A stretch of DNA of 35,281 nt. It comes from Opitutus sp. GAS368 (lineage in GTDB: Bacteria > Verrucomicrobiota > Verrucomicrobiia > Opitutales > Opitutaceae). Below the pieces are notes generated by a model. It was not told the origin of the DNA. It saw nothing but the letters and a program-made list of their open reading frames with translations, and did no database searches. Positions 13,358 through 24,255 of the stretch are shown one piece after another. Positions within the stretch are counted from its first letter, which is position 1. Each line of letters begins with the position of its first letter. The stretch lies in assembly GCA_945906965.1 (NCBI GenBank), contig CAMDRP010000020.1, positions 1-35,281 on the forward strand. Direction: 5' to 3'. Position numbers and translations under genes: made by a program.

Positions 13358-14713
13358 TTAGCGCATCCGCCGTCCGACCATCACGCGCTGGGCCCATGGG
13401 AAAAATTCCTTTGGCTCAGGCTCTTTAACAACAAGGCCCGCGGGAATAACGGACTTAGTCTCGAGATTAACCGGCCGAGCCAAACCTGCGGCTTCGCGCA
13501 ATTTATCTTTTTTGCTTTTCCGTTTCCCTTTTATTCCGCCGCCACCCAGGACGAGCGGAACCGGAGGCTCAATTTCAACGGGTTCAAAACCCTCGATCTG
13601 TTCACGCAGGATACCACGGACGTTACGTTTTTCAATGAGCTGAAAATGCGCATGCGTTTCCGCGCTCACAAAACTCACGGCCACGCCATGCGCACCCGCC
13701 CGACCGGTACGTCCGATGCGATGCACATAATCAACGGCCGAACGCGGCAAATCATAATTCACCACGACCGGCAGCTCTTCGATATCAAGCCCACGCGCTG
13801 CTAAATCTGTCGCTATCAGCAGACGAATTCGACCCGCCTTAAAATCGACCAACGCCTGCGTGCGCGCCCCTTGGCTCAATTCGCCGTGCAGAGCCGTCGC
13901 ATCAAGGCCGGCCCGACGCAGCTTGTCCGCGACATGCTCCGTGCCATATTTAGTCGCGACAAAAACGAGCACTCGCGTCCATCCGTTTTCTTCTGTTAAA
14001 TAACGCAGCAACTGGGTTCGCCGCGGTTCATCCACTTCAATCGCACGCTCCTCGATGCGGGGCTCCTCTTTAAGAACAGGCGCCAGTTCGATGATATGCG
14101 GGTCCCGTAATAAAGCATCAGCCAAAGCGGTTACAGCCGGAGAAAATGTCGCCGAAAAGAATAAACTCTGACGCTCAAGCGGCAAACACCTCGTGATGCG
14201 TCCCCATTCTTCCGCAAATCCGAGCGCTAGTAACCGATCAGCCTCATCGAGTACCAACACCGAAACCGCCTGTAGCGAAAGCGCGTTGTGTTCAATCAGA
14301 TCCAACAAGCGCCCTGGCGTCGCCACCAGCACATCCGCTCCACCACCCAAGGCCATCATCTGCGGATTAATTGAAACGCCACCGTAAACCACCAACGTTT
14401 TGATGGGCTCAGGCAAAAATCGACCATAGCGCCGCACGGCTTCCCCCACCTGGGCGGCGAGTTCGCGCGTTGGCACCAAAATCAACGCGCGCACCCAACG
14501 CCCTGGCTCACGCCGTCGTAACGTTAATCCCTGCAAGAGCGGCAACACATATGCAGCAGTCTTGCCTGAGCCCGTCTGGGCTGAGGCGCGCACATCTCCG
14601 CCACTTAAAATCACCGGAATCGCCGCAGCCTGGATAGGCGTAGGGTCCACATAGTTCTTCTCCGCGATGGCACGAAGCAACGGCGCGGAAAGACCAAGTT
14701 GAGAAAACGACAT
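13358..14713 (-). CDS. DEAD-box ATP-dependent RNA helicase (RhlE-like)
   Basis: A 451-residue RNA helicase of superfamily 2. Motifs in order: Q motif (F3, Q28 in PTPIQAAAIP), I AQTGSGKT (45-52), Ia PTRELAAQ (81-88), Ib TPGRLLD (132-138), II DEAD (156-159), III SAT (187-189), V ATDLAARGLD (301-310) and VI HRIGRTGR (331-338). A short basic C-terminal tail (GKRKSKKDKLRE) likely binds RNA. It should act on structured RNA in ribosome assembly or decay; the RhlE subgroup is suggested by overall layout only. It lies 76 bases downstream of the aas-like gene on the same strand. Confidence 0.93.
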   Translation of the reverse strand: MSFSQLGLSAPLLRAIAEKNYVDPTPIQAAAIPVILSGGDVRASAQTGSGKTAAYVLPLLQGLTLRRREPGRWVRALILVPTRELAAQVGEAVRRYGRFLPEPIKTLVVYGGVSINPQMMALGGGADVLVATPGRLLDLIEHNALSLQAVSVLVLDEADRLLALGFAEEWGRITRCLPLERQSLFFSATFSPAVTALADALLRDPHIIELAPVLKEEPRIEERAIEVDEPRRTQLLRYLTEENGWTRVLVFVATKYGTEHVADKLRRAGLDATALHGELSQGARTQALVDFKAGRIRLLIATDLAARGLDIEELPVVVNYDLPRSAVDYVHRIGRTGRAGAHGVAVSFVSAETHAHFQLIEKRNVRGILREQIEGFEPVEIEPPVPLVLGGGGIKGKRKSKKDKLREAAGLARPVNLETKSVIPAGLVVKEPEPKEFFPWAQRVMVGRRMR

Positions 14714-14789: not shown

Positions 14790-17021
14790 TCAAGCCACGG
14801 CTTCGAGCGCGATACGCCTACACCCCTTCAAGTCCAATTTTCCAGATCCAAGCACCGGGATTTTCTCAACCTGATGAATATGGCGGGGAATCCAAAGGGC
14901 CGCAAAGCCAGCCGCTAAAAGTCGCTCGCGCACCTCCGCGACATCCAGCGCAACCGTCGTCAACACCACCAAAGACTCTCCCTTTGCTGCATCAGGCACG
15001 CCCATCACTACAGCCGCATAGGTTTCCAATTGCTCTAGACCGAAAACTTCCAAGAGCTTTTGCTCGATGGTTCCGTGCGGCACCATCTCGCCTCCAATTT
15101 TAGAAAAACGCGAAAGCCGTCCTTCGATGTAAAGAAAACCTTCCTCGTCAAATCGGCCAAGATCCCCAGTCACAAACCAACCATCACGAAAGGCCGATCG
15201 CGTCTTCTCCTCATCGTTGAGATAACCCGCAAACACATTGGCGCCCCGCAAGAGCACCATACCAGTCGTATCCAGCGGTAATTCAGCCCACGTGTCGGGA
15301 TCTACGATACGCGCACTCATACCAGGCACCAACCGACCGACCGAGCCGTCTCTTCGCCCTTCTTGCGGCTCACTGGTCGTTGTGACCATGGGCGGATGCG
15401 GTTGATTTAAATTCGCCGCCGGCGTTGTCTCGGTGAGACCGTACCCTTGCAAAATATTCAGGTGAAAACGCTCCAGGAAACCGCGCGCTAAATCATCGGT
15501 CAGCTTTTCGGCTCCGGTCACAACCAATGTCAGCGTGCGCAATTCGCCCGGTAGAGCCTTCTTTAGAATCGGCCGAATGAAGGTCGGCGCGCCGATTAAA
15601 GACGTCGCTTTCTCATCCCGGATCGCATCGATAATTTTCCTCGTATCGAGTGGACTCGGCACCGTAACGACCAGACATCCGCGCAAAATCGGATACCAGA
15701 GTGTGGCGGTAAATCCGAAGCTATGAAAAATCGGCAAGCACCCGATTACCGTGCATGTTTCCGGCAAAATGGAGATCGAGGAAATCTGCGTGTAATTCGC
15801 TAAAATGTTTCGATGAGACAGGATAACGCCCTTGGGTTCGCCTGAACTTCCACTCGTAAACAAGAGCCCAGCCTCAGCGAGATCGCCTGTTTTCGGTAAT
15901 CCAAGTAGATCGGCGCACCACTGATTTGGCACTACCCATGCAGCCAGCAACCATGGAGCCATCGCCTTTTTTCCTCCCGCTAGAGCGATCTCGGTCTTTA
16001 GATCTAGTGTGCGATCAAGCCAAGGGAAAGCAGGCAACTTCACGCGCATGGCTTCAGCGCTGATGATGGTGTGTATATCGCCGAGTTTGAAACTCGCCTC
16101 TAAGCTCTCGCGCGATGTGGTAAAATTGAGGTTAACCGGGACCTTACCAGCCGCTAAAATTGCGAGATTGGCGATGAACGCTCCCGCACCCGGTGGCAAC
16201 ACGATCCCCACCCGTTTTTCGACAATCGTCGCACGGATACGTCGAGATAACACCGCTACGGCCGCATAAAGTTGGGCGCACGTAACCTCGCGCCGCTCGG
16301 CCGTCCGATCCACCAACTGCAGTCGCCCTGGCATTTTGGTTAGTGCGCGTATGCTTTCACGCCCCAAATGGCATTTCAAAACCGGACGCTCCTCAAAGGC
16401 CACTCGCCCAAGATCAAGCAACTCCAAGCGAGCCCAACCTACACTCACCCGTTCCGGCGCGGTCGCATGACCAAAAGCGATAAACACCGGCGTAGGTTTC
16501 AATCGCGGCGATTTCCACAAGTACGTATTGCCCGAAAATGAAAAAATCGAACCCCACAAGCCATCGATCGCAGCAGCCACCACGGGTACATTGGCCTGTC
16601 GAGCCATGACTTCGAAACCTCGCTGAATAGCCATCAGCTGACCGGTACGCGAAATATGCCCCTCTGGACACACGCACACGACCTCGCCAGCTTTAAGCGC
16701 AGTCACTGCCGCTTTCATTCCCTGCCGCGGTTGCTCCGAGGAAATTGGAATCGAACCGCTGATGGCAAAAACCCAATCAAAAAATGGGTTTTGTTTCAGG
16801 CCATCATATCCGACAAAATGAATTGGGCGGGGACATCCAAGCTGTAAGACCACGACATCTGCATAAGAAAGGTGGTTCGCAATTAATAAGACGCCGCCTT
16901 GCGCAGGGATATTTTCTTCGCCACTGGTCCGCACTTTATAAAGTGCTCGCGCAATGATTCTCGCGATCAAATCGAGGAAAAACGGCAGACATGATCGACG
17001 TGGCAACATGGGGTATGTCAT
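14790..17021 (-). CDS. aas: Fused acyltransferase / acyl-ACP synthetase (Aas-like)
   Basis: A 743-residue fusion with the architecture of E. coli Aas, which re-acylates lysophospholipids with ACP-activated fatty acids. The N-terminal PlsC-type domain (about 15-200) has the HX4D catalytic motif (H50, D55 in NHLSYAD) and a CPEGHISRTG motif (118-127). The C-terminal AMP-forming ligase (about 225-740) has the P-loop TSGSSGEPKG (389-398), YGLTETTP (527-534), TGD (618-620) and the catalytic lysine K728 in GSGKLD. The usual Arg after PEG in this motif is His (H122). The ATG at 17021 is used; M5 is an alternative. No lplT lysophospholipid flippase is adjacent. Upstream lies a strong palindrome. Symbol given by architecture only. 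Confidence 0.86.
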   Translation of the reverse strand: MTYPMLPRRSCLPFFLDLIARIIARALYKVRTSGEENIPAQGGVLLIANHLSYADVVVLQLGCPRPIHFVGYDGLKQNPFFDWVFAISGSIPISSEQPRQGMKAAVTALKAGEVVCVCPEGHISRTGQLMAIQRGFEVMARQANVPVVAAAIDGLWGSIFSFSGNTYLWKSPRLKPTPVFIAFGHATAPERVSVGWARLELLDLGRVAFEERPVLKCHLGRESIRALTKMPGRLQLVDRTAERREVTCAQLYAAVAVLSRRIRATIVEKRVGIVLPPGAGAFIANLAILAAGKVPVNLNFTTSRESLEASFKLGDIHTIISAEAMRVKLPAFPWLDRTLDLKTEIALAGGKKAMAPWLLAAWVVPNQWCADLLGLPKTGDLAEAGLLFTSGSSGEPKGVILSHRNILANYTQISSISILPETCTVIGCLPIFHSFGFTATLWYPILRGCLVVTVPSPLDTRKIIDAIRDEKATSLIGAPTFIRPILKKALPGELRTLTLVVTGAEKLTDDLARGFLERFHLNILQGYGLTETTPAANLNQPHPPMVTTTSEPQEGRRDGSVGRLVPGMSARIVDPDTWAELPLDTTGMVLLRGANVFAGYLNDEEKTRSAFRDGWFVTGDLGRFDEEGFLYIEGRLSRFSKIGGEMVPHGTIEQKLLEVFGLEQLETYAAVVMGVPDAAKGESLVVLTTVALDVAEVRERLLAAGFAALWIPRHIHQVEKIPVLGSGKLDLKGCRRIALEAVA

Positions 17022-17362
17022 AGACGTGACTTAGTTATGCAAAGACTCCGTTTGCGGATTCAAAACTATTCAGCATAGGAAGTTTTTACTTTTGTCCATC
17101 AAACCAGCCCCCTCCACCTTGATTTCTAAAAAAACTTAAGCGGGTACGCTTGCCGAAGATGCGATTCCCGTCTGAACGCCATTTCTAATCTTCAGCTTCA
17201 ACAATGAACAAGCGTTGTTCATTCGAGGAATATCTGAATTAAGAATTCATGAAATAGATTCAGGCAATATGCTCAATTACCAGGCAACTTCCGCCCCATC
17301 GCGCCCACCTCAAGCGTCTTAAATAACTTGAGTGCTTTCTCCATGAATTTAAACTGCAAACC
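17022..17362. other. 341-base gene-free region upstream of the aas-like gene
   Basis: No convincing coding sequence or tRNA was seen. The stretch is visibly more AT-rich than its surroundings and dense in inverted repeats: 17138-17151 (5-bp arms), 17203-17223 (9-bp arms), 17235-17249 (6-bp arms) and 17309-17332 (6-bp arms, ctcaag/cttgag). It must carry the promoter for the minus-strand aas-like gene and the 3' end of the TOPRIM-like gene transcript. None of the repeats is followed by a convincing T run on the minus strand. Confidence 0.6.
17203..17223. promoter_or_regulatory. Perfect 21-bp palindrome, candidate operator
   Basis: Arms aatgaacaa and ttgttcatt are exact reverse complements with a gcg spacer. 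The site lies about 180 bases upstream of the aas-like start. Size and symmetry are typical of TetR- or LacI-type dimer sites. A second, shorter palindrome (tgaatt-aag-aattca, 17235-17249) is centred 29 bp away. No regulator gene is adjacent, so the cognate protein is unknown. Confidence 0.45.
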
Positions 17363-17998
17363 TTAAAGTTGAGGGGGTGATTTCAAATCTTTCATCAGGG
17401 CCGCAAAACCCGGGAAATCGTATTCCAAGCGACGCAAGTCTCGGCGGTGACGTTCCGTTTCACGCAACGCACATTGTATTTCATGCGGCAGACTCGGTCG
17501 TTCGGTTTGATAGATTCGAAATTTCAATTCAGCTCGAGTGTAGGGGAGACGGCCAGCTTGCTGACCGTTGATCCAAGCGGCTTCACTAACGTCACTGTCC
17601 CGCCCGCAAAGCAACCAGGCCTCAAGGGCGGGTACCGCTACACCCACAACGCGCCGGACCTTCAAGCGACCATGCGCACTGGGAAAACGTTTGCTCGTCT
17701 GTCGGAACACGGCCCGCAGTTGGCACATCCGACAATGCGGATGGTAATATTGCGGGGCTTCATGGGCCTCCGTGTGAACCGGCGAATCATCGGAGTCGCA
17801 CGTTACGACGAGCGTATCGACATCGGTATTGAAATGCAGGTGGCGAATCACCGCTGGCAGCACTTGAATGACATTGGGCCAGCCCCGCGCGCGATAACCC
17901 GCGGGCGCGACCTGTGCAGGCTCACCCAAAATTGCATCCACGAGCACACGCAACACCGCTTCGTCTGCGGGCGATTCGCTGAGCAATGCGACCTTCAT
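17363..17998 (-). CDS. TOPRIM-like protein (DUF4276/RloB-type) paired with an AAA ATPase
   Basis: About 211 residues. The frame extends upstream, but the ATG at 17998 overlaps the ATPase stop as ATGA and starts the conserved core. The pattern resembles a TOPRIM fold: a first strand with an acidic residue (MKVALLSESPADEAVLRVL, E8), a second strand ending in an acidic DSDDS (D68-D71, after DTLVVTC), and a VPALEAWLL segment (122-130, E126) characteristic of DUF4276/RloB-like proteins. TOPRIM domains usually bind Mg2+ for nucleic-acid cleavage. A cysteine/histidine cluster (HPHCRMC, 87-92) is also present. Family assignment comes from motifs only. With the upstream ATPase it resembles OLD-, RloAB-, AbiL- or PARIS-type two-component defence modules, but membership is not shown. 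Confidence 0.7.
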   Translation of the reverse strand: MKVALLSESPADEAVLRVLVDAILGEPAQVAPAGYRARGWPNVIQVLPAVIRHLHFNTDVDTLVVTCDSDDSPVHTEAHEAPQYYHPHCRMCQLRAVFRQTSKRFPSAHGRLKVRRVVGVAVPALEAWLLCGRDSDVSEAAWINGQQAGRLPYTRAELKFRIYQTERPSLPHEIQCALRETERHRRDLRRLEYDFPGFAALMKDLKSPPQL

Positions 17999-18984
17999 CG
18001 TTCCTCCGGCACACCGCCGAGGACACCACTGAACCACATATCACCTAGAGTGCCTTCGCGTAGCAATTCCGGCAAATCAACACGATCTGAAAGCCGTTCA
18101 AACCGGGCTTCATGCCCATGTTTTTGAGTGATCACGACCTCTTCGGGATGATCCCTGAATTGATCCAACATATAGGGTGAATGCGTCGTCGCGATCACCT
18201 GCACGGGCTCGCGTATTTCACCAAAGGATGTCGGATAACTCAGCCGATAGAGCACATCGCGCACTTCGCGGAACATGCGCGGATGAATCCCGCGATCAAT
18301 TTCCTCAATGCAAACGACCGCAGGTGGTACCGGATCAAATGACAACACCAAGAGCCCAAGCAGATAAAAAACGCCTTGGGAAAGATTCTCGGCGCGAACC
18401 GGCTCCCCTGCGCCACCAATACCTAGCGCAAATCGCACGCGACCACCCGAGTCCTCCTCAAAGATTATACCCGAAAATTCGGGCAACAGCCGCAAGAACT
18501 CTGCTTCCAAACGCGCAAACTCCGCCGGCGCGTTACGCTGCCGCGCAGCCAAAACCGCAGGTAGATTCGCGCCGTTGCTAGCGAGGCCGCCGCCCGATGT
18601 GGTCAACGCCGAAGCGGCCATGGCCTCGTGATCAAACGCATAGCTACGCATCGTGCCTAAGCGGGCTTTGATTTCATCCCACTGCACCTGGCTCGGCGAC
18701 TCGACCCGCAACAGATCGCACACGACGTCGCTCGTGCAGCCGAGCCGCGCCGTCACATCGGAGTGCGGCGCAGCGAAAGCGATCGTGATCTCAGGCCCCC
18801 CGACCCGGGTGACGGCCGCGGCCTCACCCAACGGGAGCATGGCGAGCGTCCGTAGCCTTTGGAGCGCCTGAATCAGACTCGTCTTCCCGCTCCCGTTGGC
18901 ACCGATCACGATGTTAAACGGCGACAAGCGGAGGCTCGTGTTGCGGAGAGCCTTGAAATTCCGAAAAGCGACGGAGGCGATCAC
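17995..18984 (-). CDS. AAA_21/OLD-like ABC-type ATPase
   Basis: A 329-residue SMC/RecF-like ATPase. Visible motifs: N-terminal FRNFKALRN strand, Walker A GANGSGKTS (28-36), an ABC-signature-like LSQG (201-204), Walker B VVCIEEID (223-230, E227/E228), switch histidine H268 in TTHSPYML, and a C-terminal MWFSGVLGG typical of AAA_21 proteins. The middle region (about 70-195) is short, without the long coiled coil of SMC proteins. The start is GTG at 18984; no in-frame ATG lies close upstream. Its stop overlaps the ATG of the TOPRIM-like gene, so the two are translationally coupled and probably form a complex. It is divergent from the phytase-like gene across 109 bases. Confidence 0.85.
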   Translation of the reverse strand: MIASVAFRNFKALRNTSLRLSPFNIVIGANGSGKTSLIQALQRLRTLAMLPLGEAAAVTRVGGPEITIAFAAPHSDVTARLGCTSDVVCDLLRVESPSQVQWDEIKARLGTMRSYAFDHEAMAASALTTSGGGLASNGANLPAVLAARQRNAPAEFARLEAEFLRLLPEFSGIIFEEDSGGRVRFALGIGGAGEPVRAENLSQGVFYLLGLLVLSFDPVPPAVVCIEEIDRGIHPRMFREVRDVLYRLSYPTSFGEIREPVQVIATTHSPYMLDQFRDHPEEVVITQKHGHEARFERLSDRVDLPELLREGTLGDMWFSGVLGGVPEER

Positions 18985-19093
18985 TTCACTAATACAACAA
19001 TTCAGCCTCCCGGCCGCCAGCCTACATATTGTGACCTTATCGTCGTTCCAGCGTCACGGATCCGTCACATTATCGAACTACCTTTTGTGCTTC

Positions 19094-20980
19094 ATGCGTC
19101 TACTCCAAATCCTAACTGCTCTCATCATCGCCGCCGGCACTCTCGCCGCGCAGCCCGTGACATCCGTCACGCTCAACGGCCAACACTTCGTCAATCACGG
19201 TCTCGTCGGCGTCGGCCGGATGCCCGCAAATCTGAAAGACAAGTTCGGCGAAACCTTCGGCTCATTCTCGGCCTTCACCTTTCAGCCTGGCTCGTGGCAG
19301 CGTAACGCCAACGGATCCTATTCCGGCACGTTGTTCTCCCAACCCGACCGTGGCTACAACGCGGCGGGCACCACCAATTACGTTTCCCGTTTCAACAAAA
19401 TCACGGTAGCCTTCACGCCCGCTCCGGCTGGCGCCACGACGCAGACGCAGGTCACACTCACGCTCACTGATACGATAAAGCTCACCGAGACCGACGGCAC
19501 ACCGTTCACCTCGCTCGATCCAACCTCCGCCGGCACGGGCACCCGCGCCGGTTTCCCTGCGATGCCGCAAGCCTTCAACGGCCGCCTATCCCTCGATCCC
19601 GAGGGTATCGTCGTAAACGCAGACGGCACAGTGTGGATCAGCGATGAATATGGTCCCTATATTTTTAAATTCTCCGCCGACGGTAAGCTGACCTCAGCGA
19701 TTCGCCCACCCGAGGCCATAGTCCCTAAACGCAACGGGGCCGACTCGTTCGCCTCCAACAATCCCGGTCCTGGTCAATCCGCCCCCACCCCCGCCGATCC
19801 CACCACCGGCCGCCAGAACAACCAAGGCCTCGAAGGGCTCTCGATTTCCCCGGATGGCCGCACCCTCTTCGCCCTCCTCCAATCCGCTGCCCGCCAAGAC
19901 GGAGGCACCGGTGGCTCAGGCCCCCGCCGCTACACCCGCCTGCTCGCCTATGATCTTTCCAGCACAGCCGTCGGGGGTACCCCGGTCCTGCGGGGTGAAT
20001 ATGTCGTGGCTTTACCCACCTATCGCGTCGGCACCGCGACCCGCGTTCCCGCCCAGAGCGAGATGCTCGCGATTAACAGCACCCAATTCCTCGTCCTAGC
20101 CCGCGATGGCAACGGTCGCGGCGTGGCCTCAGCCACATCGCTCTATCGCAACATCCTCGTCTATGACATCAGCGGCGCCACCAACATTGCCGGCACCGTC
20201 TACGACACCACCGCCACCCCCATTGCGCCTGCCGGCGTCCTCGCCTCGGGCCTGGTACCGGCCGCCTCGACGGAGTTTATCGACATGAACAACGCCGCGC
20301 AGCTCGCGAAGTTCGACCTTAATAACGGTCCGGTAGACAACGCCAACACACTGTCCGAAAAGTGGGAGGCTCTATCCCTCGTGCCCGCGCTCGATCCGAC
20401 CGCGCCGAACGATTGGTTTCTCTTCGTCGGCAACGACAACGATTTCATCACGACCAACGGCTTTCAGGACGGGGCCGCCTACGCCGCCGCCTTAGACAAC
20501 GACACGATGATGCTCGTCTATCGGCTCACAATCCCCTCCCGCGTCGTTAATTTCTCGAGCCGCGCCCTGACCGGCTCCGGCGCCGGTGCCCACGTGCTCG
20601 GCTTTGTGGTGAGCGGCGCCAAACCCAAGGATGTCTTGATCCGCGGCGTCGGTCCTGCGTTGGCAAACTTTGGCGTCTCGGGCACTTTAGCGGATCCCTA
20701 TTTGGCCTTATTCAATGCCGCCGGCCAAAACGTATTGGTGAATGGAGACTGGGGCACTCCTGGTTCGGCCCCAGCCGGTATTGCCGCACCCGTACGCACC
20801 TACGCGAGCGCGGTGGAAATCGCCGCAGCCGCAACCCGCGTTGGCGCCTTCGCCCTGACCGCCGGCAGTAAAGATGCCGCCGTGCTCACCCAACTCGATC
20901 CGGGTGCGTACACGGTGCAAGTCTCCGACGCCAGCGGCGCGAGCGGTATTAGCTTGGTCGAAGTCTTCGAACTGCCGTAA
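19094..20980 (+). CDS. Secreted esterase-like/phytase-like beta-propeller protein
   Basis: A 628-residue exported protein. The signal peptide (MRLLQILTALIIAAGTLAAQ) is followed by an 'esterase-like activity of phytase' domain (about 30-480), with DPEGIVVNADGTVWISDEYGPY (168-189) and QGLEGLSISPDGRTLFAL (244-261) as its recognisable repeats. The C-terminal 145 residues (about 484-628) form a separate beta-rich module (GFVVSGAKPKDVLIRGVGPAL), of a kind I associate with secreted verrucomicrobial proteins, possibly for surface attachment. The frame opens at 18896; the ATG at 19094 was chosen because it begins the signal peptide. Enzymatic activity is unproven for much of this family. It is followed by a strong terminator. 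Confidence 0.85.
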   Translation: MRLLQILTALIIAAGTLAAQPVTSVTLNGQHFVNHGLVGVGRMPANLKDKFGETFGSFSAFTFQPGSWQRNANGSYSGTLFSQPDRGYNAAGTTNYVSRFNKITVAFTPAPAGATTQTQVTLTLTDTIKLTETDGTPFTSLDPTSAGTGTRAGFPAMPQAFNGRLSLDPEGIVVNADGTVWISDEYGPYIFKFSADGKLTSAIRPPEAIVPKRNGADSFASNNPGPGQSAPTPADPTTGRQNNQGLEGLSISPDGRTLFALLQSAARQDGGTGGSGPRRYTRLLAYDLSSTAVGGTPVLRGEYVVALPTYRVGTATRVPAQSEMLAINSTQFLVLARDGNGRGVASATSLYRNILVYDISGATNIAGTVYDTTATPIAPAGVLASGLVPAASTEFIDMNNAAQLAKFDLNNGPVDNANTLSEKWEALSLVPALDPTAPNDWFLFVGNDNDFITTNGFQDGAAYAAALDNDTMMLVYRLTIPSRVVNFSSRALTGSGAGAHVLGFVVSGAKPKDVLIRGVGPALANFGVSGTLADPYLALFNAAGQNVLVNGDWGTPGSAPAGIAAPVRTYASAVEIAAAATRVGAFALTAGSKDAAVLTQLDPGAYTVQVSDASGASGISLVEVFELP

Positions 20981-21066: not shown

Positions 21067-24000
21067 TCACTTACCGCCGAGAAACTTGTTTAGTAAATCG
21101 CCGGCACTGCTCTTTTCGAAAGCGAGCTTCATCAGCACCGATTGCAATTCACTCGTGTTGGGCTGGCCCAGCGTACCTGTGATATTCAGCGGCAGGGAGC
21201 TGGCGAAGTAACCGAGGTCGTCCTTCTTCGTCGCATCGAGCGCGCCCAGAGCCTTGAGTAAATCGCTGGTATGTCCACGGGCTCCGAGCTGAAACTGCAT
21301 CGCGAGCGGCTGCGCGAGCAACTCAGTCTTTGCCTTAGCTGTAATCTTGCCGGTCCCGGCTAAGCGCAATTCCGGCGCAATCAACGTGAAATCCTTCAGC
21401 ACCGTATTAAGCTTGGCGTCACGGGAAACTACCACGTTGAGCTGATCATAGTGAATCACTGAGATCATTTTTGAAATCGAAGCCACGGCTTCAGCCTTGT
21501 TCGCCGCCTCACCGTATTCTTTCCGGCCGCTGACAGCACTCGCCACATTCCCTAAAAAAGCGACCGCGGAGGCTGTCTTACTTGTCGATTCCATTTTGGC
21601 CGCAACATCCGCCGAGAGCGCCCGAAACACCCCCCCCTTGCTAGACAATGTAAAATCACCATGGGCGCGTGCGCCGAGCTCTGGAATCGTTCGTCCTTGG
21701 GCGGCTAATTCACTGCCGATTGTAAATTTTCCCTCGAGGGTCGGAAGTTGGTCTGGATTCAAAGACCGCAAGACAGGGGCTGGATCAAAATTAGTTACAT
21801 CCAATCGGGCCGCGAGCGTGTAGGGTTCAGCCGCGCGCTCCAGGAAAGTGATTCCACCATTGAGCTTCACATCGCTTTCCGCGCCGAGTCCTGCGCGGAG
21901 ACCTTCAAACTTGAGCGCTCCCGCCTCTACGCGTAAAGTACCTCCGACATCAGCCAGTTCAATTTTATCGGCGAAAACCACTTTTTTGAGTGCGAGAGCA
22001 AGTGAACCACTGACTCCGACCCACACAGGTTTCTCGTCCCGCAGCGACGACGACTTTGGGCCAGAAACAGACGGTGCCGTAGGAGTTGCCCCGCCGGCGA
22101 AGGGAGCGACGAGCACTTGTAGATCCTCTAGATGAAGCTCGCCGCTGTTCACGCGTGCGTCGATTGAGAGACCGTTTGACGTCGATCCCAACGTGCCCGC
22201 GATAGTGAGATCCGATTTCCGATCCGCGCGCTTAAAGAGCAAGGGAGCATTCAGCGTAATTTTTCCATCCGCCGAAATATCAGTCCGAACACGCGCCGTG
22301 ATATCGGGCAACGTTTCGACGGTGAGTCTGGGATCGGCCGTTAATCCGACGAGAGCGAGATTCAACTCTACCTCGGTCTTGCCCGCCACCGAAGCGACAA
22401 AGTCCCCGCTCGCGGTTCCGCGCGTCAAACTAAGCGTACCTGCAACCATCGGCTGCACAAGTAACGCAGCAATATTCGCACTCCAAATCCCAGTAGTTTT
22501 GAGCGGTTGGTCACGTCCAGAAAGTTGCCCCGCCTTGGCCGTAATTTTAAGCAACTCGACGTCCGCACTGCGCAACGTGAATGCCGAGACATTCGCCTGC
22601 CAACCCGCTGGCGCGTAATCGATTCCCAAATTCAGAGACACGTCTAAAGCCTGCACGAGCGGCCGACCATTCTGCGCCAAATTTAGTCCCTCGATCGATA
22701 GCGGCGCGCGGGGCCGTAAAGAGAGTCCGCCGTTGTTGGCCGTGGCTGCAAATTCACCTCGGAGGTCGCCACCCGTGAGCTGTATATCTGGTAAAAAGGG
22801 CTGCGCCCAAGCCAAAGGCAAACCGTGCAGTGTTAGCGCGAACAGCTCGCGGATCGGATCCGCGACATTCAGTTCGCCGGTGCGAACGTTGAGTTCAAAC
22901 GGTTGGAGCGAACGCACGGAGACAACCGGACGCTCGCCTTGAATCTCGGCTTGTAGGCGCTCGATTCGGGTAGCTCCACCGCGTTGCGCGAGGTCAAATT
23001 CAGCGCTGAGTCTGATCGCACCGACTGCGGCCAACTCGGGCTTAAGTGCAGTGAGCTGATCGGCGGTACCGGCGAGTCGCCCGCTCGCCTGAATCTTCGC
23101 AAATGCAGTATCAGTTAAAAACTTACCATCGCCTGAAGCCGAGAATGTCGGCAACGCACGACCCAAGGCAAAGGGCGCCAAATCATTGGAGCGCAAATCG
23201 AGCGCCCAAGTGCCTTCCAGGAGGCGATTAGCAACATGCAGCTCGGCATTAAGGCCGATCAGTTTTTGCGCCGGATTGGCGAGCGTAACACGGTAGGATT
23301 CACCGGAGGACGTGCGGGCGGCTTGAACCATCGCGGAAAGTTTTACGCCGGCCGGAAATTGCACGCCCGTAGCGATGGCCGTCGGCTCGATAGCCACTCG
23401 CGCAAAGGTGCGCGGAGTGTCCATGGCCGCCGTTAGAATCGCATTAATAGCGACCTGAGACACCGGGAGCCTTTCGCCCGCAAAGGCTACGGTTAGATCG
23501 AGTGTGAACCGGGCGTCGCGCCCTGATGCGAGCCCACCACCCACAAAGGTGAGGCGCGCGCGTGAAGTAGGTCCATCACCGGGCGCAGACGGGAGTAAAA
23601 TTTCACCTTCCAAGTCCAGTCCCTCGAGCGCGAGATCAACCGGTAATTGGAGTTGCGCAAAAACGCCTTCAAATAACTGAACCGCTGCGGGCAGCGCGGT
23701 TGCAGGATCCGCGGCTATCGCTCTGCTGAGAATGGAGAAGCTCGGTGCGCCCGCACCGGGCAAAATTGCTGGAAAAGAACGAGCAGCTACGGGCGGCAAA
23801 GTGGCTTTCGTCAGATCAAGCGTCCAGCCACGAGCGACCCACTTCGTAATTGAGATTTTATTCGAAAACCCAGCTGCGATGAGAGGCATCTCAATCGACA
23901 GCGCGGGCATCGCGAAAACTGCGCCATTTTGCTCGATCCGCAGCGCCTGCAAGTCCACGCGATCGAGACCGATGCTGACGGAGCCGAGCGTGCCACGCAG

Positions 24001-24132
24001 GCCCGGTTGTGCGGCCATGGCCTTGCGGGCCGCCCAGGTCTGCACGCCGGAGTTAAACGCGAGCATGACGACCACGATCAGGGTCGTGACCAACACCCCG
24101 ACGCTAAGTAATAAAATTCGAACCGGTTTCAT
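21067..24132 (-). CDS. AsmA-like family protein
   Basis: About 1021 residues: one N-terminal membrane helix (about 5-28, RILLLSVGVLVTTLIVVVML) followed by a long periplasmic region of repeated beta-strand motifs, and a C-terminal AsmA-type segment (LNTVLKDFTLIAPELRLAGTG and LPLNITGTLGQP). Such proteins are bridge-like lipid-transfer or envelope-assembly factors between the membranes. The frame opens at a GTG at 24180, but MKPVRILLL (24132) places the helix at the N terminus. It lies 123 bases downstream of the TolC-like gene on the same strand and may be read through from the efflux operon. A direct repeat flanks its start. Family likely, cargo unknown. Confidence 0.8.
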   Translation of the reverse strand: MKPVRILLLSVGVLVTTLIVVVMLAFNSGVQTWAARKAMAAQPGLRGTLGSVSIGLDRVDLQALRIEQNGAVFAMPALSIEMPLIAAGFSNKISITKWVARGWTLDLTKATLPPVAARSFPAILPGAGAPSFSILSRAIAADPATALPAAVQLFEGVFAQLQLPVDLALEGLDLEGEILLPSAPGDGPTSRARLTFVGGGLASGRDARFTLDLTVAFAGERLPVSQVAINAILTAAMDTPRTFARVAIEPTAIATGVQFPAGVKLSAMVQAARTSSGESYRVTLANPAQKLIGLNAELHVANRLLEGTWALDLRSNDLAPFALGRALPTFSASGDGKFLTDTAFAKIQASGRLAGTADQLTALKPELAAVGAIRLSAEFDLAQRGGATRIERLQAEIQGERPVVSVRSLQPFELNVRTGELNVADPIRELFALTLHGLPLAWAQPFLPDIQLTGGDLRGEFAATANNGGLSLRPRAPLSIEGLNLAQNGRPLVQALDVSLNLGIDYAPAGWQANVSAFTLRSADVELLKITAKAGQLSGRDQPLKTTGIWSANIAALLVQPMVAGTLSLTRGTASGDFVASVAGKTEVELNLALVGLTADPRLTVETLPDITARVRTDISADGKITLNAPLLFKRADRKSDLTIAGTLGSTSNGLSIDARVNSGELHLEDLQVLVAPFAGGATPTAPSVSGPKSSSLRDEKPVWVGVSGSLALALKKVVFADKIELADVGGTLRVEAGALKFEGLRAGLGAESDVKLNGGITFLERAAEPYTLAARLDVTNFDPAPVLRSLNPDQLPTLEGKFTIGSELAAQGRTIPELGARAHGDFTLSSKGGVFRALSADVAAKMESTSKTASAVAFLGNVASAVSGRKEYGEAANKAEAVASISKMISVIHYDQLNVVVSRDAKLNTVLKDFTLIAPELRLAGTGKITAKAKTELLAQPLAMQFQLGARGHTSDLLKALGALDATKKDDLGYFASSLPLNITGTLGQPNTSELQSVLMKLAFEKSSAGDLLNKFLGGK

Positions 24133-24135
24133 ACG

Positions 24136-24166
24136 CGAAGAAGAGGACACAATGTCCGAAGAAGAG
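24136..24166. repeat. 10-bp direct repeat flanking a small palindrome
   Basis: cgaagaagag occurs at 24136-24145 and again at 24157-24166, exactly 21 bp apart, about two helical turns. The 11 bases between are a small inverted repeat, gaca-caa-tgtc. The element sits just upstream of the AsmA-like start. It could be a tandem regulator site or chance. Confidence 0.35.
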
Positions 24167-24255
24167 TTGCAAATAACCACCCGCCTTCAACGCCCGCCTC
24201 GGATTATTGCCAGCCCCTAGGAGCCGAAAACCAGCGAGCGCTCGGGCCGAGCTAC

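Follow-up and report, generated by a model that had tools for sequence, protein, structure and literature searches.

What task is served by an ATPase gene whose stop codon runs into the start of a gene for a small TOPRIM-like protein? The question is raised by the window analyzed here, a stretch of 35,281 nucleotides from Opitutus sp. GAS368 (assembly GCA_945906965.1, contig CAMDRP010000020.1), in which two such genes, A and B, lie side by side. An earlier note on this DNA, made from the sequence alone, had seen in them an ATPase/TOPRIM pair akin to PARIS and a candidate anti-phage system. Our analysis indicates that the two products, taken as a machine, very probably constitute an ATP-gated TOPRIM nuclease. 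Machines of this kind are already known; what is new is a variant of the split OLD/HEC-01 type that is resident in one lineage and is predicted to bear zinc. As to its task, we see an even chance that A-B is a resident, chromosomally inherited genome guard, innate and probably directed against mobile elements, which would form a zinc-bearing branch related to HEC-01. OLD-type ATPase/TOPRIM machines are commonly taken as phage defense. A-B stays mostly at one place, retains its catalytic residues and follows genus boundaries, yet is often cleanly absent, and it thus allows a test of whether such machines enter host service.

Gene organization and the ATPase

The start codon of A is a GTG at position 18984, a codon at which most homologues also begin in the alignment, and B starts with an ATG at 17998. 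As the earlier note had stated, the stop of A overlaps this ATG: on the minus strand the TGA of A and the ATG of B merge as ATGA, and the sequence shows GGAGG 4 nt ahead of the ATG (Table 1). The same 4-nt overlap is found in 34 of 46 homologous pairs; the spacing is −1 to +160 nt in 11 others, measured to the first aligned codon of B, and the remaining pair lies on a truncated contig and was unreadable. A sigma-70 scan of positions 16950–19200 found no promoter; four terminator-like sites were seen against 2.7 expected, including one (17138–17151) between B and the acyltransferase gene downstream.

Both the sequence and the predicted structure of A assign it to the ABC/OLD-type ATPases. Walker A (GANGSGKTS, residues 28–36), the LSQG signature (201–204), the Walker B glutamates (227–228) and the H-loop histidine (H268) all stand where the earlier note had numbered them. 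Among 75 homologues, one of them partial (216 aa), K34 is kept in 74, G204 in 75, E227 in 74, H234 in 75 and H268 in 71. A C-terminal motif, LGDxWxSGxLGGVP (residues 313–326), is present nearly everywhere in this set, and residues 41–200 are the most variable region of the alignment. The Pfam family AAA_21 matches A above its cut-off (8.9e-26). In PADLOC, where A has 132 matches overall, HEC-01A, represented by several models, is best (6.2e-36, with a best stretch that spans residues 96–324 only), followed by PDC-M07A, AriA (2.2e-26), mad3 (7.6e-18), AbiLi, Old and PtuA; the HEC-01A and AriA models match all 37 A homologues scanned. The AlphaFold model of A, with a mean predicted local distance difference test score (pLDDT) of 91.9, resembles retron/Septu PtuA (Z 18.6), SMC/Rad50 heads (Z about 16–17), AriA (Z 16.2) and TsOLD (Z 15.7).

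The TOPRIM-like partner

The homologue set of B comprises 76 proteins (75 distinct) of 208–232 aa from 33 genera. Fourteen residues are invariant in all 76: E8, D12, E13, G39, D68, D70, H75, H79, H86, C89, C92, G119, E126 and W128. They contain a TOPRIM residue set, E8-x3-D12, G39, D68-x-D70 and E126. The TOPRIM pattern is described as a Glu after strand 1, a Gly after strand 2 and DxD after strand 3 (PMC6755086), and in the AlphaFold model of B (pLDDT 89.0) E8, G39 and D68 follow strands 2–6, 29–32 and 62–67, with E126 in a helix after strand 116–121. For the Burkholderia pseudomallei OLD protein (BpOLD), the same report has E400 and D455 binding metal A and E508, which lies in a helix, binding metal B, while E404, D457 and T506 act via waters and E404 and E508 are given as the second-metal residues (PMC6755086). 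The motif order of B agrees with that of BpOLD; by order, D12 would correspond to E404 and E126 to E508. Substituting such residues singly in BpOLD is reported to have left no visible effect (PMC6755086). The residues singled out in B by the earlier note (E8, D68-S-D-D71, E126 and HPHCRMC at 86–92) are all present as numbered, and its motifs in both proteins exceed chance because they are conserved across the homologues of A and B.

The pair H75-x3-H79 and the pair C89-x2-C92 directly follow the DxD of B, and this arrangement suggests that the four residues bind zinc. In the four relatives of B from Planctomycetota, E8 and D68 are present throughout; the position of D70 is aligned with Asp in one, Asn in two and a gap in one, whose sequence reads DSD. 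All four zinc-like ligands are found in two of these relatives (L100 and L103), three in L101 and none in L102 (9563–10174), whose second DxD residue is Asn. Because these relatives keep the ligands unevenly, the TOPRIM core appears to be under tighter constraint than the four ligands.

No Pfam or NCBIfam family matches B, and other members of its family give weak, scattered Pfam matches (best 0.03). A sequence search of the PDB with B returned NDRG2 alone, at E 1.5 or worse, and a search with the B profile returned nothing. In the fold comparison, OLD TOPRIM chains are listed (6nk8, Z 6.4 over 158 residues; 6p74, Z 5.8 over 132) amid unrelated alpha/beta folds of similar Z. AriB and RNase M5 are absent from this list, which is too weak to exclude either.

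Relation to HEC-01 and other systems

HEC-01 is the nearest relative by both proteins. HEC stands for Hma-embedded candidate (PMC12988326), Hma being a system described in PMC8565338, and HEC-01 is listed among the systems of one gut strain in PMC12724379. Compared directly with the HEC-01B models, B reaches 0.002 over residues 1–78. The HEC-01B model PDLC04202 matches 22 of 43 B homologues at E ≤ 1 (best 0.00022) and finds nothing at E 0.001 in the source genome of the window. A profile of 43 B sequences matched nine HEC-01B proteins from other Verrucomicrobiota with E 7.4e-5 and probability 62; with 80 sequences, Planctomycetota included, the values were 3.8e-6 and 87, over residues 1–131. 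All 20 column-shuffled controls stayed at probability 1.0 or less. One Planctomycetota relative, L103, bridges the two groups: its B protein matches HEC-01B at 1.3e-5 and its ATPase matches HEC-01A at 1.7e-48. On these sequence comparisons the B family and HEC-01B look homologous, with B at the edge of the reach of the model.

Like A-B, HEC-01 has the ATPase gene followed by an abutting B gene, and eight of the nine HEC-01A proteins carry a C-terminal G-x-LW element similar to the GDMW of A. B can be aligned to HEC-01B including the E, DxD and LEAW elements. The two differ in that the H/H/C/C set of B is not seen in the nine aligned HEC-01B proteins, that A has 329 aa against 392–428 aa in the nine HEC-01A proteins, and that A-B keeps one main chromosomal place. 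No Hma model was matched at 1e-10 by 109 neighbor proteins from homologous loci (see below). Among the papers listed from the open literature searched there was neither a functional study of HEC-01 nor work on defense systems of Opitutaceae or Verrucomicrobiota.

PARIS, proposed as class 4 OLD (PMC10568477), likewise has a separate ABC ATPase (AriA) and TOPRIM nuclease; its AriB is reported as a TOPRIM protein that cuts tRNA (PMC12409363). B differs by its zinc-like set and has no AriB or DUF4435 match in PADLOC, Pfam or NCBIfam. The molecular reading of the earlier note, an ABC/OLD ATPase coupled to a TOPRIM-like protein and akin to PARIS-type pairs, is supported by the family matches and the conserved residues, with weaker support from the fold. 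With the OLD proteins of class 1 (TsOLD) and class 2 (BpOLD/GajA), A-B shares the ATPase fold and the TOPRIM metal-residue pattern, but OLD is a single fusion and A-B two proteins, and no helicase gene directly follows B, the nearest being a DEAD-box gene (13358–14713) one gene beyond. The chromosomal OLD gene ybjD of Escherichia coli is reported to give anti-phage phenotypes on induction, with its Toprim domain dispensable (PMC13261556). As for MADS, A matches mad3, and four of 43 B homologues weakly match mad4 (best 0.0065); no further MADS gene was found by Pfam among the ten window neighbors scanned.

Distribution and inheritance

The A-B family is nearly restricted to Opitutaceae, the family being named by record titles. 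Among 57 relatives B was found in 25: 10 of the 13 congeners, 15 of 24 from the remaining genera of the family, and none of 20 from the remaining families of the order. Sampling within the family found B in 127 of 200 genomes, 37 of 49 genera and 97 of 147 near-complete genomes, the other 50 giving no match. The match is single in 126 of the 127, and the one double entry is a gene split over two contigs, as its query range shows. Across the phylum B occurs in 22 of 288 genomes, all within the same family, and in a Planctomycetota sample in five of 294, one by a short partial match. A search of genome contigs gave 33 loci, of which 32 are titled Opitutae-type or Verrucomicrobia and one Planctomycetaceae.

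In quick trees, 13 of the 15 listed genera with at least two members fall on one side of a branch, both for B (the exceptions, g4 and g61, take two changes each) and for A (the exceptions being g57 and g59, again with two each). The genus grouping overall takes the fewest changes possible, a value that none of 200 shuffles attained in either tree. Across genera, distances of B correlate with those of the anchor gene (the acyltransferase/AMP-binding gene downstream of B) with r 0.38 (n 64; shuffled maximum 0.206), and the nearest neighbor of B from another genus has a median rank of 4 by anchor distances, with single genomes up to 61. Since this correlation is only moderate, occasional transfer between genera is possible. 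By genus labels and the anchor gene tree, A-B seems to be mainly vertically inherited.

The two genes are absent together. A was found in none of 22 genomes that lack B and in all eight B-bearing ones (E ≤ 1e-30), and since the genes are coupled and are present or missing together we treat A-B as a single machine. The anchor gene was matched in 18 of the 22 (1e-60), several matches being partial or distant. In the genus of the window, the three members without B are assemblies of 79–86% completeness in which the anchor gene is wholly or mostly missing, and because of this incompleteness the absence of B in them is uninformative. Twelve empty loci were compared. In seven, the counterpart (about 1000 aa) of the 1037-aa protein upstream of A in the window stands beside the anchor, its stop lying 83–245 bp (six loci) or 628 bp (one locus) from the first aligned anchor codon; in the other five this neighbor was unrecognized. 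Searches of the 12 with every fourth homologue detected no trace of A or B at E ≤ 1e-3.

On a FastTree tree of the anchor gene, with long branches flagged (G073, G024, G069 and G087), presence (65) and absence (12) require nine changes, at least eight of them forced by starred branches. Shuffled labels need 11.4–11.5 changes on average, and as few as nine in three of 500 shuffles, so that absence is weakly clustered. Counts of changes alone do not distinguish losses from gains; the coherence of genera in the trees favors loss. We read the pattern as one old acquisition of A-B followed by repeated clean deletion of both genes together. Five genera (g2, g16, g20, g25 and g58) hold both present and empty states, and these pairs are natural comparisons.

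The ratio of nonsynonymous to synonymous divergence (dN/dS) is 0.04–0.23 for A (compared in 18 of 19 pairs, of which 17 were computable) and 0.00–0.16 for B (17 of 19 pairs computable, the rest saturated). Along A, the first 150 or so codons of the window share 49–73% nucleotide identity per 25-codon block with the genus relatives G002 and G006, against 84–92% (G002) and 80–88% (G006) after codon 175. Compared with another relative, G009, the fall (to 59–83%) comes after codon 175. B of close relatives is 93–95% identical to that of the window while the adjoining A diverges (L021, L022 and L023). A is a mosaic, most simply through recombination. Diversifying selection on A is not claimed, as dS climbs with dN in the mosaic stretch.

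Proposed mechanism and role

How A and B would form a complex, bind metal, act as a nuclease, be triggered and serve the cell we infer as follows. A would dimerize as an ABC ATPase and hold or position B, which would be a two-metal TOPRIM nuclease whose zinc-like element shapes the substrate site. A signal may be sensed via the variable middle of A (about residues 40–200) and, with ATP turnover, release or orient B, which would then cut nucleic acid, either DNA or tRNA.

The anti-phage role proposed in the earlier note gains from two results: the best-matching families (HEC-01A, and also AriA, mad3 and AbiLi) comprise candidate or known defense proteins, and the pair is dispensable. Several observations count against the genome guard that we favor at even odds. 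Among 76 loci, the same acyltransferase/AMP-binding gene stands no more than 6 kb from B in 67, from 29 of 33 genera; the loci are the window, seven named contigs of its genus and 68 stretches from B-bearing genomes, chosen for long contigs and spread over genera, some of which (such as that of G060) stop at contig ends. Genera are coherent in the trees of both A and B. B had no match among 72,556 records of plasmids and 50,697 of phages, and of 24 viral-contig stretches that fit a B peptide pattern none was confirmed. There is no clear defense neighborhood among 109 neighbor proteins, a survey without a matched control set in which mild enrichment is possible. The mosaicism of A is explained by ordinary recombination, since dS is raised. 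The fold matches of B are middling: none is at Z 8, the top place is tied between lumazine synthase and PH0156 (Z 7.3), the latter (2p62), of unknown function, being also the widest match at 167 residues, and Foldseek returned no hit at E ≤ 0.001 from the PDB or from viral models. One main place, genus-coherent trees, no relatives in the plasmid, phage and viral collections searched and no clear defense neighborhood are unusual for defense systems. The earlier note held that a defense role would be refuted if all relatives had the pair at one fixed syntenic position, without variation in presence; the place is indeed largely fixed, whereas the pair is often cleanly absent.

The same ATP-gated TOPRIM machine might instead work for the host chromosome, in nick processing, chromatin or division control. 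We consider such a maintenance or cell-cycle module possible though rather unlikely, an immune role being somewhat likelier. One main place, one match per genome, coherent genera, purifying selection and the length and active site intact in 76 of 76 copies would all suit it, as would surroundings with no mobile and no clear defense neighborhood. It also has a precedent in Cran1, of the U11 OLD clade of Sulfolobales, whose tree is reported to track the species tree, which is described as undeletable with a cell-cycle role, and for which the assays that were tried reportedly revealed no effect against viruses (PMC12796447). Cran1, like A-B, is OLD-type, lineage-restricted and vertical, with no defense neighborhood; it differs as a single archaeal ATPase-nickase that cannot be deleted, A-B being split, bacterial and often absent. 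Maintenance is harder to reconcile with the lack of B in 50 of the 147 near-complete genomes and with clean absences that recur within genera, and the closest families are candidate or known defense proteins. Tentatively, A-B may be a bacterial counterpart of Cran1: an ancestral, split, zinc-bearing OLD-type machine that serves the chromosome outside immunity, or else provides innate immunity linked to the chromosome, in a lineage-resident class distinct from PARIS.

An ordinary HEC-01 defense cassette that spreads horizontally and is merely common in Opitutaceae is improbable. The HEC-01A match of A, the weak HEC-01B match of B, two deep-branching members (G025 and G060) away from the anchor, the sporadic Planctomycetota relatives and the moderate r would be expected of it; a shared anchor in 67 of 76 loci, coherent genera and no phage, plasmid or viral relative in the collections searched would not, and PDLC04202 fails to reach E 0.001 in the source genome. 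Slightly less probable still is a toxin-antitoxin-like pair kept by addiction, in which B would be a tRNA- or DNA-cutting toxin and A its antidote and activator. The genes are coupled and absent together, AriB offers a TOPRIM tRNase as a parallel (PMC12409363), and in WonAB, an ABC ATPase with an unrelated nuclease, the overproduced nuclease is reported to be toxic only with the ATPase (PMC12137116). Against this, A-B is resident, mainly vertical and not seen on the plasmids searched, and repeated clean loss of both genes does not suggest addiction. A repair pair that replaces or doubles RecF and RecR, with an ATPase lacking a long coiled coil and a small zinc-bearing TOPRIM protein, is the least credible reading, and substitution was rejected: a RecF model does match the N-terminus of A (4.5e-8) and RecR is a zinc and TOPRIM protein of about 200 aa, but the source genome retains its own RecR (C67, 1.2e-64) and RecF (C31, 1.0e-90) above cut-off, as do 31 of 34 relatives searched for RecR and 29 of 34 for RecF, pair-less genomes such as G020 included, B has no NCBIfam match, and its putative zinc ligands come after the DxD, inside the TOPRIM part, whereas the zinc finger of RecR precedes its TOPRIM part.

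Genomic surroundings

The coordinates of the pair and its neighbors are collected in Table 1.

Table 1. Features of the A-B locus in the window (positions in nucleotides).
Feature	Position	Strand	Remarks
Gene A	17995..18984	minus	329-aa ABC/OLD-type ATPase (AAA_21)
Gene B	17363..17998	minus	211-aa TOPRIM-like putative nuclease
Zinc-like insert of B (H75-x3-H79 ... C89-x2-C92, codons 75–92)	17723..17776	minus	in 76/76 homologues; predicted to bind zinc
A/B coupling site	17995..18007	minus	GGAGG, 4-nt spacer, ATGA (A stop and B start)
Acyltransferase + AMP-binding gene (acyl-acyl carrier protein synthetase-like), syntenic anchor	14790..17021	minus	downstream of B; no proposed part in the machine
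Gene of 1037-aa protein, syntenic anchor	21067..24180	minus	upstream of A; no Pfam match at 1e-5
Phytase-like gene	19094-20980		divergent; between A and its upstream neighbor

The downstream anchor gene is on the same strand as B in 64 of the 76 loci and within 600 bp in 36. A lies in the same stretch as B in 75; in the sole exception, G149, the two are on separate contigs (L136 and L197), through real separation or an assembly fault. Nine loci lack the anchor, among them those of the two deepest branches, G025 (L156) and G060 (L167), which share a long branch and are perhaps separate acquisitions; the G060 contig is short.

As the earlier note had observed, no integrase or defense gene flanks the pair: Pfam found no such family among the ten window neighbor proteins scanned. 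The wider survey covered 545 coding-like open reading frames at the 68 loci. The 306 frames with no homologue among the window genes formed 168 clusters; 159 of these had a representative no shorter than 180 aa, and 109 of the 159 were scanned. At 1e-10 they matched 14 PADLOC models, mad2 by three proteins and 13 models by one each (CARF/RtcR types, MzaA, mad3, mad8, Csa3, two SIR2-Argonaute models, pAgo and PycC). Several models probably share one protein, and the mad3 match may be a divergent copy of A. At most 16 of the 109 proteins match; on this set the reading as a defense island was rejected, although a mild enrichment is possible.

In many loci the gene order is resistance-nodulation-division (RND) efflux, the 1037-aa gene, A-B and the acyltransferase gene, the 1037-aa gene being less conserved than its neighbors. 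Extra genes stand between B and the acyltransferase gene in L124 (9861–12079) and L129 (11069–16669; both in oriented-locus coordinates) and in L136: a relative of the MarR-like regulator of the window and two families common to g25 and g2. The phytase-like gene is also present in the genus relatives G009, G001, G005, G008 and G010. G002 and G006 lack it and have the upstream neighbor about 100 bp from A; a single recombined tract may account for both this absence and the divergence of A in these two genomes.

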